This document shows, one piece after another, positions 280-5,459 of a stretch of DNA of 64,000 nucleotides. Position 1 is the first letter of the stretch. Each line of letters begins with the position of its first letter. The stretch covers positions 1 to 64,000 of the forward strand of contig JAJQDT010000128.1 of NCBI GenBank assembly GCA_021202075.1, written 5' to 3'. A program made the translations under genes and the position numbers. This stretch comes from Lachnospiraceae bacterium (GTDB taxonomy: Bacteria > Bacillota > Clostridia > Lachnospirales > Lachnospiraceae). A model generated the notes under the pieces. It was given only the letters and a program-made list of their open reading frames with translations, was not told where the DNA came from and searched no databases.

Positions 280-1152
280 ATGATTCAGGATATGGGAGAA
301 GGACATTGTTTTCATAATGAATACCGGCCGGATGCCCGGCCGAAACCGGACAGCAGGATTATGTTTTACCGCGGACGGGAAATCCTGGTGAAACGGGAGG
401 AAAATGAGATTTCATTTTTGACATGGGCCGAACTGGAACCGGAGTTTATGCTCCGGGAGGAAGAGGCGACGTATCTTTTCTCAATCAATGAGATTGATTA
501 TTTCCTGTTTCGGGATTTTAGGGAATCCATGTATGCGCCGGATGATATGCCGGGGCATTTCCCGGGATATACCTGGGAGAAGATTGAATTGATGCGTCAG
601 GCGGCTCCCGGGGACGCCGCGTTTGCCGGGGTCACAGGGATGCAGCTTTTTGGCTGGTACCAGAGTCGGCGCTTCTGTCCGGTGTGCGGCAGGCGCATGG
701 TTCACAGTGCGAAGGAGCGGATGATGCACTGTGAGGTCTGCGGACAGGTGGAGTATCCGAAAATCTGTCCGGCTGTGATTGTTGCGGTGACGGATCAGGA
801 GCGGATTCTGCTGACGAAATATGCCGGCCGTTCATTTAAAAAATATGCGTTGATTGCCGGCTTTGTCGAGATCGGTGAGAGCATTGAGGATACGGTTCGT
901 CGCGAGGTGATGGAAGAGGTCGGGCTGAGGGTGAAAAATATCCGCTATTATAAAAGCCAGCCGTGGTCGTTTACAGATACTCTGTTGATGGGATTTTTTG
1001 CAGAGGTGGATGGAGACAGTGAGATTTCCCTGGATGAGACGGAGCTTGCGGTGGGAAAGTGGTGTACGCGCAATGAGGTGCCCGAAGACGACGGGGTGAG
1101 CCTGACGCGGGAGATGATGGGCGTATTTAAAAACGGAGGTTTTACAAAATAA
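280..1152 (+). CDS. nudC: NAD+ diphosphatase, NUDIX family with zinc ribbon
   Basis: CPVCG…CEVCG zinc ribbon followed by Nudix box [22 protein letters not shown]. Confidence 0.9.
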
Positions 1153-1187: not shown

Positions 1188-2363
1188 ATGGAAAGGAAAA
1201 ATAGAAAATACTTCCCGATTTTTGTGGATCTTTCAGATAAAAAAGTGGTGGTTGTCGGCGCCGGTACGATTGCCAAGCGGCGTGTCCGTGCGCTTGTCGA
1301 CTTTACCGGCCATCTTTTTGTGATTGCGCCGGAGATTAATCCGGAGCTGCGGGAGCTGGAAGAGGCAGGGAAGCTGACGATTCTTCGAAAAAAATATGAA
1401 AGAGAAGATGTTTCTGATGCTTCGATTGTGATTGCGGCGACAAATGACCGAAGACTGAACCAGGAGATCTATGCGGCCTGTAAAGAAATGGGAATTCCTG
1501 TCAACGTCTGTAATGACAGGACTCGCTGTGATTTTTATTTTCCGGTGCTTGTCTGTGATGATACGATCGTTGCGGGTATCAGCTCCGGTGGGCGCGATTC
1601 CGCCGGATCCAGGCGCATTGCGGATCAGATTCGGGAGCTGTTGGGGGAACCAGAGAAGAGATCTATGCCTGCAGATCGCTGGTACAGGATGAATTCCAGT
1701 CAGGCAATTTCGGTGTCCGATATCGAAGAATGTCCTGCCTTTGAGGATGGTTCCGGGAATGATTCTGGGAATGGCTCTGGGCGCAGCCGGATGGCAGATT
1801 CTGTATGGAACGCCAGGAAACGTGAGGATTTTACGGATAAAGAGAATCTGGATCTTTTGCAAACGCAGGCGGACATCCCGCCGAATGTCCGGTTTGTCCG
1901 TATTTACACGGACGGCGCGGCCCGCGGCAACCCGGATGGACCGGGCGGCTATGGAGTGCTGCTTAAGTATCGGGATGCTTCCGGACTGGTACACGAGCTG
2001 GAATTTTCCAAGGGCTATGTAAAGACAACGAATAATCGTATGGAGCTGATGGCGGCGATTGTCGGACTTGAGGCTTTGAATCATCCCTGTGAGGTGCAGC
2101 TTTATTCGGACTCCCAGTATCTTGTGAATGCATTTAATCAGCACTGGCTGGATAACTGGATTAAAAATGACTGGAAACGCGGCAGGAATGAGACGGTAAA
2201 AAATGTCGACCTCTGGAAACGTCTGCTGGCGGCCGCCGCGCCGCATCAGATCTCCTGGAACTGGGTGAAGGGGCATGACGGACACCCGGAGAATGAGCGC
2301 TGCGACACGCTTGCGACCGGCGCGGCGGACGGGGAGGATCTGATCGAGGATATTGTACTTTGA
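1188..2363 (+). CDS. Fusion protein: N-terminal precorrin-2 dehydrogenase-like (SirC/Met8/CysG-N) domain + C-terminal ribonuclease HI
   Basis: N-term [26 protein letters not shown]…AATNDRRLN…[10 protein letters not shown]-term [15 protein letters not shown]…NNRMELMA…YSDSQY…[15 protein letters not shown]; single uninterrupted frame. Confidence 0.88.
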
Positions 2364-2819: not shown

Positions 2820-5459
2820 GTGAAGAAGTACGGAGTAAATGAGTTAAGACAAATGTACCTGGATTTTTTCAGGAGCAAGGATCATCTGGTGATGAACAGC
2901 TTTTCGCTGGTGCCGCACAATGACAACAGCCTGCTGTTGATCAATGCGGGCATGGCGCCGCTGAAGCCTTATTTTACCGGCGCGGAGATTCCGCCGAAAA
3001 AGCGTGTGGCGACCTGCCAGAAGTGCATTCGCACGGGTGATATTGAAAATGTCGGGAAGACGGCGCGCCACGGCACTTTCTTTGAGATGCTTGGGAATTT
3101 TTCGTTCGGCGACTACTTTAAAAAGGAAGCCATCGGCTGGTCCTGGGAGTTTCTGACCGAGGTGGTCGGGCTGGATCCGGATCGTCTGTATCCGTCTGTG
3201 TATCAGGATGACGATGAGGCGTGGAACATCTGGCATGAGCAGATCGGGATTGCGCCGGAGCGGATTTTCCGGTTTGGGAAAGAGGATAATTTCTGGGAGC
3301 ACGGCGCGGGACCGTGCGGGCCGTGCTCGGAGATCTATTATGACCGCGGGGAGAAGTACGGCTGCGGGAAGCCGGACTGTACGGTCGGCTGCGACTGCGA
3401 CCGCTACATTGAGATCTGGAATAATGTCTTTACACAGTTTGAGAATGACGGGAATGGCAATTATGAGCTGCTGAAGCAGAAGAACATTGACACAGGCATG
3501 GGGCTTGAGCGCCTGGCGGTGGTTGTGCAGGATGTGGATTCGATCTTTGATGTGGATACGATCCAGGCGCTGCGGGATAAGGTCTGTGAGGTCGCAAAGA
3601 CGGTGTACAAGACGGATGAGAAGAAGGATATCTCCATTCGTCTGATCGTGGATCATATCCGCTCGGCGACGTTTATGATCTCGGATGGCATCATGCCGTC
3701 CAATGAAGGGCGCGGCTATGTGCTCCGCCGTCTGATCCGCCGTGCGGCGCGCCATGGACGGATGCTCGGCATTGAGAGCAGCTTCCTCTCGAAGCTTTCT
3801 GAGACGGTGATTGAGGGCTCCAAAGCCGGTTATCCGGAGCTGGAGGAGAAAAAGGAATTTATTTTCAAGGTTCTCTCGCAGGAGGAGGAAAAGTTCAGCC
3901 GCACGATTGACCAGGGGCTGTCTATTTTAAATGAGCTGGAGGCGAAGCTTTCCGCGGACGGGAAGACGACGCTCGAAGGAAAGGATGCGTTCGTGCTTTA
4001 TGACACGTACGGATTCCCGCTGGATCTGACGAAGGAGATTCTGGAAGAAAAAGGCTATACCATCGATGAGAAAGGCTTTGGGGCCTGTATGGAGGAGCAG
4101 CGGCAGAAGGCGCGCGCAGCCCGGGCGACAACGAACTATATGGGCGCGGACGCGACGGTCTATGATCAGATTCCGGCAGCCATCACGACGGAGTTTGTCG
4201 GCTATGATTCGCTGTGCTGTGAGTCAGAGATTACCGTACTCACGACCGAGACGGAGCTTACCGAGGCGCTCACGGAGGGCGTGCGGGGCACGGTGATTAC
4301 GAAGCGGACGCCGTTCTATGGCACGATGGGCGGCCAGGAAGGCGATAAAGGCGAGATTGTCTGCGCGGCGGGGCGCTTTGTGGTGGAGGACACCATTCAT
4401 CTGCTCGGCGGAAAATATGGCCATGTCGGCTATATGGCAGAGGGCATGATTAAGACCGGCGATACGGTGACGCTTAAGGTAGACGAGATGGGGCGTACCA
4501 ACACCTGCCGGAATCACAGCGCGACCCACCTGCTTCAGAAAGCGTTGAAGACGGTACTCGGCTCCCATGTGGAGCAGAAAGGCTCTCTCGTGACGCCGGA
4601 CCGGCTGCGCTTTGACTTTGCCCATTTCCAGGCGATGACTGCAGAGGAAATCGCGCAGACGGAGGCACTGGTCAATCGCGAGATTGCTGCGGCGCTTCCG
4701 GTCGAGACCCGCATCATGAGCATTGAGGATGCAAAAAAGACCGGCGCGATGGCGCTGTTTGGGGAGAAATACGGCGATGAGGTGCGCGTGGTCTCCATGG
4801 GTGATTTTTCAAAGGAGCTTTGCGGCGGTACCCATGTATCTAATACGTCCGTCATCACGACGTTCAAGATCGTATCCGAGGCCGGCGTAGCCGCAGGAGT
4901 GCGGCGCATCGAGGCTCTGACCGGTGAGGGTGTGTTTGCTTATTACAGAAAGCAGGAGCAGGAGCTCATCGAAGCGGCAAAGCTTCTGAAGACGACTCCG
5001 TCTGGTGTTCATGAGAAAATCGCGGCGCTGCTTTCCGAACTGAAAGCAGTAAACAGTGAGAACGAATCGTTAAAGAGCAAACTTGCAAAGGACGCGCTCG
5101 GCGATGTGATGGATCAGGTCTGCGAGGTAAATGGCGTGAAGCTTCTCGCGACAAAGCTGGAGGGCGTGGATATGAACGGCCTGCGTGAGCTGGGCGACCA
5201 GCTGCGGGATAAGCTCGGCGAGGGCGTGGTGCTTCTGGCGTCAATGACGGATGGCAAAGTCAGCCTGATGGCGGCTGCGACCGACGGCGCGATGAAGAAA
5301 GGCGCGCATGCGGGCAATCTGATCAAAGGCATTGCAGCTCTAGTCGGCGGCGGAGGAGGCGGCCGCCCGAACATGGCGCAGGCCGGCGGCAAAAATCCGG
5401 CCGGTGTGGACGCGGCGCTTGAGAAAGCAAAAGACGTGCTCGCAGCGCAGGTGAAGTAA
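2820..5459 (+). CDS. alaS: Alanyl-tRNA synthetase
   Basis: Full-length AlaRS (879 aa), RNHSATHLL and CGGTHVSNT motifs, C-terminal GGGGGGRPNMAQAGG. Confidence 0.97.
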   Translation: MKKYGVNELRQMYLDFFRSKDHLVMNSFSLVPHNDNSLLLINAGMAPLKPYFTGAEIPPKKRVATCQKCIRTGDIENVGKTARHGTFFEMLGNFSFGDYFKKEAIGWSWEFLTEVVGLDPDRLYPSVYQDDDEAWNIWHEQIGIAPERIFRFGKEDNFWEHGAGPCGPCSEIYYDRGEKYGCGKPDCTVGCDCDRYIEIWNNVFTQFENDGNGNYELLKQKNIDTGMGLERLAVVVQDVDSIFDVDTIQALRDKVCEVAKTVYKTDEKKDISIRLIVDHIRSATFMISDGIMPSNEGRGYVLRRLIRRAARHGRMLGIESSFLSKLSETVIEGSKAGYPELEEKKEFIFKVLSQEEEKFSRTIDQGLSILNELEAKLSADGKTTLEGKDAFVLYDTYGFPLDLTKEILEEKGYTIDEKGFGACMEEQRQKARAARATTNYMGADATVYDQIPAAITTEFVGYDSLCCESEITVLTTETELTEALTEGVRGTVITKRTPFYGTMGGQEGDKGEIVCAAGRFVVEDTIHLLGGKYGHVGYMAEGMIKTGDTVTLKVDEMGRTNTCRNHSATHLLQKALKTVLGSHVEQKGSLVTPDRLRFDFAHFQAMTAEEIAQTEALVNREIAAALPVETRIMSIEDAKKTGAMALFGEKYGDEVRVVSMGDFSKELCGGTHVSNTSVITTFKIVSEAGVAAGVRRIEALTGEGVFAYYRKQEQELIEAAKLLKTTPSGVHEKIAALLSELKAVNSENESLKSKLAKDALGDVMDQVCEVNGVKLLATKLEGVDMNGLRELGDQLRDKLGEGVVLLASMTDGKVSLMAAATDGAMKKGAHAGNLIKGIAALVGGGGGGRPNMAQAGGKNPAGVDAALEKAKDVLAAQVK

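Follow-up and report, generated by a model that had tools for sequence, protein, structure and literature searches.

The window analysed here is a stretch of 64,000 nucleotides from G000, a draft Lachnospiraceae genome of 5.55 Mb, and it contains a single open reading frame of 391 amino acids in which a SirC-type domain is followed by a linker and a ribonuclease HI (Table 1). An earlier sequence-only reading of this DNA had proposed exactly this pairing, and the uninterrupted frame and two profile collections bear it out. The Pfam NAD_binding_7 profile matches residues 11-119 (3.6e-31, 108.3 bits against a cut-off of 22.1) and RNase_H matches residues 237-380 (9.3e-43, far over its cut-off), and the NCBIfam profiles cysG_Nterm (114.9 bits, cut-off 62.3) and NF001236 for ribonuclease HI (198 bits, cut-off 160) match the first and second halves of the protein, respectively. 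All motifs quoted in that reading are found in the protein. Residues 8-153 align by HMMER without gaps to residues 3-148 of CysG, the homology to SirC stops at about residue 153, and the C-terminal helical domain is absent from the fused protein. The RNase HI half can be aligned with E. coli RNase HI over nearly its full length and has five of five catalytic residues, so that the catalytic set had rightly been called complete; the linker, put at about 75 residues, has about 75-83 depending on where the domain edges fall.

Table 1. Features of the fused gene and its neighbours in the window
Feature	Position	Strand	Remarks
SirC2-RNase HI fusion gene	1188..2363	+	ATG start, 391 aa, stop included
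SirC2 domain, residues 8-153	1209..1646	+	Rossmann NAD-binding fold and SirC/CysG dimerisation-type segment
GAGTIA dinucleotide-binding motif, residues 24-29	1257..1274	+	invariant across the SirC2 proteins of the genus
N109, counterpart of the catalytic D104 of CysG	1512..1514	+	by alignment to CysG
S138, counterpart of CysG P133, which forms a platform beneath the tetrapyrrole	1599..1601	+	by alignment to CysG
Linker, residues 154-236	1647..1895	+	154-219 predicted disordered; length and sequence vary in relatives
RNase HI domain, residues 237-391	1896..2360	+	catalytic D242, E286, D308, H363, D373, aligned with E. coli RNase HI D10, E48, D70, H124, D134
nudC (NAD diphosphatase), upstream neighbour	280..1152	+	neighbour status not conserved
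alaS, downstream neighbour	2820..5459	+	same in nearly all relatives with rnhA here

The AlphaFold2 model, which was run as a monomer and carries no information on dimers, consists of two mostly confident domains, the first extending to about residue 150, with an overall pTM of 0.51 and pLDDT values below 50 for linker residues 154-219. A fold search of the PDB listed RNase HI alone among its best 50 matches, and nothing on the SirC half. The RNase HI of the fused gene is the sole PF00075 match in its own genome, which also encodes one RNase HII.

The nudC gene does lie upstream in the window, as the sequence-only reading had pointed out; however, it adjoins the fused gene in G000 and its nearest relative G001 only, and the upstream neighbour in most relatives is a DAHP synthase gene, which rules out the suggested link to NudC and NAD-RNA. 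The statement that siroheme and cobalamin genes are lacking nearby holds for the flanking genes, none of those adjacent to the fused locus being a tetrapyrrole gene, but not for the genome as a whole. Elsewhere G000 contains a hemA-hemC-cobA/hemD-hemB cluster, corrin-ring genes, two sulfite/nitrite-reductase-type genes, and a second SirC paralogue beside the cobalamin genes on contig C100.

The fusion was found in 11 assemblies, all from one Lachnospiraceae genus, which is taken as that of Candidatus Choladousia. A locus with SirC2 and/or RNase HI is present in 40 of the 47 genomes surveyed in this genus: 10 loci are fused, 24 have sirC2 and rnhA side by side, 4 have rnhA only, and 2 have sirC2 only within the stretch fetched. 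The eleventh fused assembly, L037 (JAJQBS010000084.1), lies beyond this survey; it has an aspartate at the place of CysG D104 and a repetitive linker, and about 2.4 kb separate the fused gene from the downstream alaS, a longer distance than in most relatives. At L058 (genome G015), alaS directly follows sirC2 with no rnhA between them, which suggests a loss of rnhA there. No SirC-RNase HI fusion was detected outside the genus among 150 sampled Lachnospiraceae genera, as judged from frame lengths and from seven long SirC frames that were opened. Separate neighbouring genes in close relatives, which the sequence-only reading had named as a sign against a fusion, do occur in the 24 genomes of the genus with side-by-side pairs; because 11 assemblies share the fused form, these pairs date the fusion as recent and do not refute it.

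Comparison of the fused and separate loci demonstrated that the fusion is genuine and recently formed. The linker ranges from 30 to 83 codons over the 11 fused assemblies, in every one of which it is in frame and free of stops, and thus the frameshift or assembly break in the linker that had been considered earlier was not encountered. These linkers have a median pairwise identity of about 30%, and the joint chance that all of them would be open under base shuffling is about 1e-12, a rough product over copies that is indicative only, because the fused sequences share ancestry. Of the 24 separate pairs, 23 have an ATG two codons ahead of the RNase HI core, mostly with a ribosome-binding site; both elements are absent in all 10 fused copies examined. 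The linkers of L013, L006 and L050 contain no in-frame start codon at all, and L037 reads through the position of the lost start without a methionine. Internal-start translation of RNase HI was rejected, as no in-frame start accompanied by a ribosome-binding site is conserved among the fused copies. With its start and ribosome-binding site lost, RNase HI appears to be produced solely as part of the fused chain. Median dN/dS values within the fused set (0.105 for SirC and 0.075 for RNase HI) point to strong purifying selection on both domains. The SirC half is constrained at least as much as the free copies, and the decay of this half that might have followed the fusion is not seen, its dN/dS being about 0.1.

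The gene orders of relatives suggest how the fusion arose. In G212 and G175, which belong to other genera, sirC2 is followed by a MutS-domain-V gene (mutSV) and then by rnhA; in G210, sirC2 is oriented away from a DAHP synthase-mutS-rnhA run; and in G191 it adjoins rnhA. Genes for MutS-domain-V ATPases between or beside sirC2 and rnhA were observed in other genera at L121 (4566-6263), L122 and L123. Within the genus, the separate sirC2 and rnhA genes often overlap or are a few bases apart, each with its own start. The group that is sister to the fused clade (L007, L008, L053 and others) has a SirC2 with a tail extending about 25-75 residues past the domain, which resembles the linkers in loose composition. 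The series of gene orders runs from sirC2-mutSV-rnhA through adjacent sirC2-rnhA to the fused gene. The AlaS tree, which includes the nine loci with enough AlaS sequence, unites the fused loci in one clade with support of 100/98. L013 is placed apart by the RNase HI tree and weakly with the other fused loci in the SirC2 and concatenated trees, the latter grouping all 11 fused copies with a weak support of 71/39. A single origin of all fused copies was not rejected (p-AU 0.123), and independent fusions, as the position of L013 in the RNase HI tree could imply, were set aside on this test and on the concatenated tree. Together the trees indicate that the fused form is derived and recent and has a single origin for most or all copies, L013 being less certain, and we infer that it was fixed mainly by drift out of tight adjacency.

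To what extent the SirC half would still act as an enzyme can be judged from its residues. G24, A25, G26, I28, A29, R31 and R32 are identical in 36 of 36 SirC2 proteins of the genus. Position 109 is occupied by N, S, T, A, K or Q in relatives, and by D in the fused L037. Position 138, a serine here, is a histidine in most Lachnospiraceae SirC proteins and has changed to alanine or serine in both the fused clade and the group sister to it. Among the SirC positions conserved across Lachnospiraceae, only 133 and 138 have changed in the fused clade, and both are also changed in the sister group, whose genes are separate. Since the states at 109 and 138 are common to this group, they predate the fusion. 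In CysG, the D104N substitution lowers dehydrogenation approximately 10-fold and chelation approximately 200-fold, and the SirC of Bacillus megaterium has at this place a serine that is not essential for dehydrogenation (PMC7018833). These effects make a loss of chelatase activity in the fused SirC likely, and do not imply a loss of dehydrogenase activity. The argument that the domain is dead because Asp104 is replaced is not valid alone, as free Lachnospiraceae SirC proteins and the B. megaterium SirC also lack the aspartate. Asparagine and serine at the D104 and P133 equivalents, together with the missing helical domain, were nevertheless counted against an ordinary dehydrogenase. The helical domain is not universal, since the open frames of many free SirC proteins in the family span only about 155-190 aa.

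The genomic context of SirC2 ties it to the tetrapyrrole pathway. In the tree, SirC2 proteins are near the SirC proteins of hem operons (support of the joining fork 88/74), and in the hem cluster of G000 there is no sirC between the genes for HemA, HemC, CobA/HemD and HemB; SirC2 was probably relocated from a hemA-hemC operon. In five draft genomes (G005, G023, G068, G069 and G212), no SirC other than SirC2 was found and cbi genes are kept, and none of them yielded hemB, hemC, an over-cut-off cobA, or a sulfite reductase domain. This pattern of hemB, hemC and cobA absence recurs in one clade and a second genus, and G005 and G069 also showed CbiK. Salvagers of tetrapyrrole precursors are already known as a class (PMC6461909), and the loci L142, L143 and L145 belong to predicted salvagers among these five genomes. 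A sole SirC in genomes without hemB, hemC and cobA but with corrin-ring genes argues for ordinary precorrin-2 oxidation, and its retention there fits oxidation of salvaged precorrin-2. The persistence of SirC2 without these three genes thus leads to the prediction that such gut bacteria salvage precorrin-2 or a precursor close to it. Because the cobalamin cluster of the fused genomes encodes a second SirC, the fused copy may be redundant or altered in function.

Taken together, the fused protein seems to be two ordinary enzymes that share a chain and not a new regulatory machine. We consider it probable that two independently working modules share the polypeptide, one a short SirC-type NAD+-dependent precorrin-2 dehydrogenase and the other the sole RNase HI. 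The SirC module would convert precorrin-2 to sirohydrochlorin, supplying siroheme synthesis, the CbiK branch to cobalamin, or both, and the RNase HI module would keep its ordinary catalysis as the only RNase HI of the cell, so that each domain presumably retains its usual catalysis with a flexible linker tying both enzymes together. Since relatives of SirC such as CysG are homodimers, pairing of the SirC domains could yield a paired RNase HI as a by-product.

A stronger version, in which such a dimer would place two RNase HI domains in each particle for a better hold on the hybrid, with SirC catalysis secondary or lost, is unlikely, though the best placed of the alternatives. It would agree with the homodimeric CysG (PMC7018833), with the replacement of the position 138 histidine by alanine or serine in the fused clade as well as its sister, and with the frame of the join being kept in every fused lineage, which could mean that the join itself is useful. 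However, the separate-gene sister group shows the same states at 109 and 138, which are therefore older than the fusion, the SirC half is no less constrained than free copies, and dimerisation of the short SirC form is putative. A regulatory fusion is a possible but improbable reading for which we found no positive support. The SirC domain would in this case sense NAD(H), precorrin-2 or sirohydrochlorin and tune RNase HI, or the reverse. Such a role could account for the invariant NAD-binding motif, for purifying selection on the SirC half despite the second SirC in the genome, and for an RNase HI that by sequence is made only in fused form. The linker of 30-83 aa, having neither conserved length nor sequence and predicted to be disordered, reveals no conserved coupling between the domains, and the two proteins stay separate in relatives; nor is the nudC neighbour conserved. 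The NAD(H)-sensing control of RNase H offered by the sequence-only reading is further disfavoured by SirC-type residues that are as in free SirC and by a gene that looks like a relocated hem-operon sirC. A specific form of this idea, in which tetrapyrrole or NAD redox state would be coupled to the removal of RNA-DNA hybrids, for instance through a SirC dimer altering RNase HI upon binding NAD+ or precorrin-2, is slightly less probable again. The chance is negligible that the fusion is an artefact of sequencing or assembly, or that a frameshift or stop codon in reality yields two proteins: every fused locus does come from metagenome-assembled or draft contigs, but the same fusion in 11 assemblies excludes a local error, and the linkers differ, all are open, and the rnhA start is lost.

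The two-enzyme fusion is a new domain pairing out of known parts, and no report of SirC-RNase HI was found in the open-access papers searched. Its living relatives preserve a full series, from an intervening gene through adjacent and overlapping genes to the fusion with a drifting linker, and hence offer a clean natural setting in which to ask whether drift or usefulness fixes the fusion of neighbouring enzymes that are unrelated to each other. Both halves have known counterparts. The bifunctional dehydrogenases/ferrochelatases CysG and Met8p have at the D104 place an aspartate needed for chelation, which is missing here (N109), and they share with SirC a C-terminal helical domain that the fused SirC domain lacks. 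The SirC of B. megaterium (3dfz) and the short forms (PRK06719) share with the fused SirC the Rossmann NAD domain, the dimerisation-type segment, the GxGxxA motif, and the lack of aspartate at the D104 place, and the fused protein differs in having no helical C-terminal domain and in carrying RNase HI; its score for the PRK06719 equivalog is 74.9 bits, under the cut-off of 223. E. coli RNase HI (2rn2) has the same full catalytic set and fold, but the fused copies have no visible start of their own and a linker in place of the N-terminal methionine.

Other fusions involve one or the other of these domains. RelZ (MS_RHII-RSD) of Mycobacterium smegmatis, whose domains are inactive when separated (PMC7591505), also joins an RNase H to an unrelated small-molecule enzyme, an alarmone synthetase, but its RNase H is of type II. 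In three other families of the order, we found IspD-RNase HI proteins (L116:1265-2503, L117:2129-3430, L118:1455-2600), in which RNase HI is likewise C-terminal to an unrelated metabolic enzyme; the partner differs and the events are independent, and the literature searched held nothing relevant on this fusion. SirC, in turn, is fused in Lachnospiraceae to HemC (L108, L109, L113), to a tetrapyrrole methylase (L111, L114, L115), and, as HemA-SirC, to HemA (L112), and thus both domains fuse readily. The closest parallel is the actinobacterial RNase HI-CobC (Rv2228c, MSMEG_4305, SCO2299; PRK07238), which also unites RNase HI with a vitamin B12 enzyme. Its linker is highly variable, it is restricted to one branch, its domains are separable in vivo in M. 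smegmatis without fitness loss, and its fixation was ascribed by the authors to drift (PMC7466739). In RNase HI-CobC, however, an N-terminal RNase HI precedes a C-terminal phosphatase, CobC, whereas here RNase HI is C-terminal and its partner is a SirC-type dehydrogenase. Consistent with this reversed order and with the absence of a phosphatase domain from the 391-aa protein, NF005567 matches its RNase H part only (27.3 bits against a cut-off of 326). The two fusions are of independent origin, and SirC-RNase HI adds to RNase HI-CobC a second case in which a B12-pathway enzyme is linked to RNase HI.
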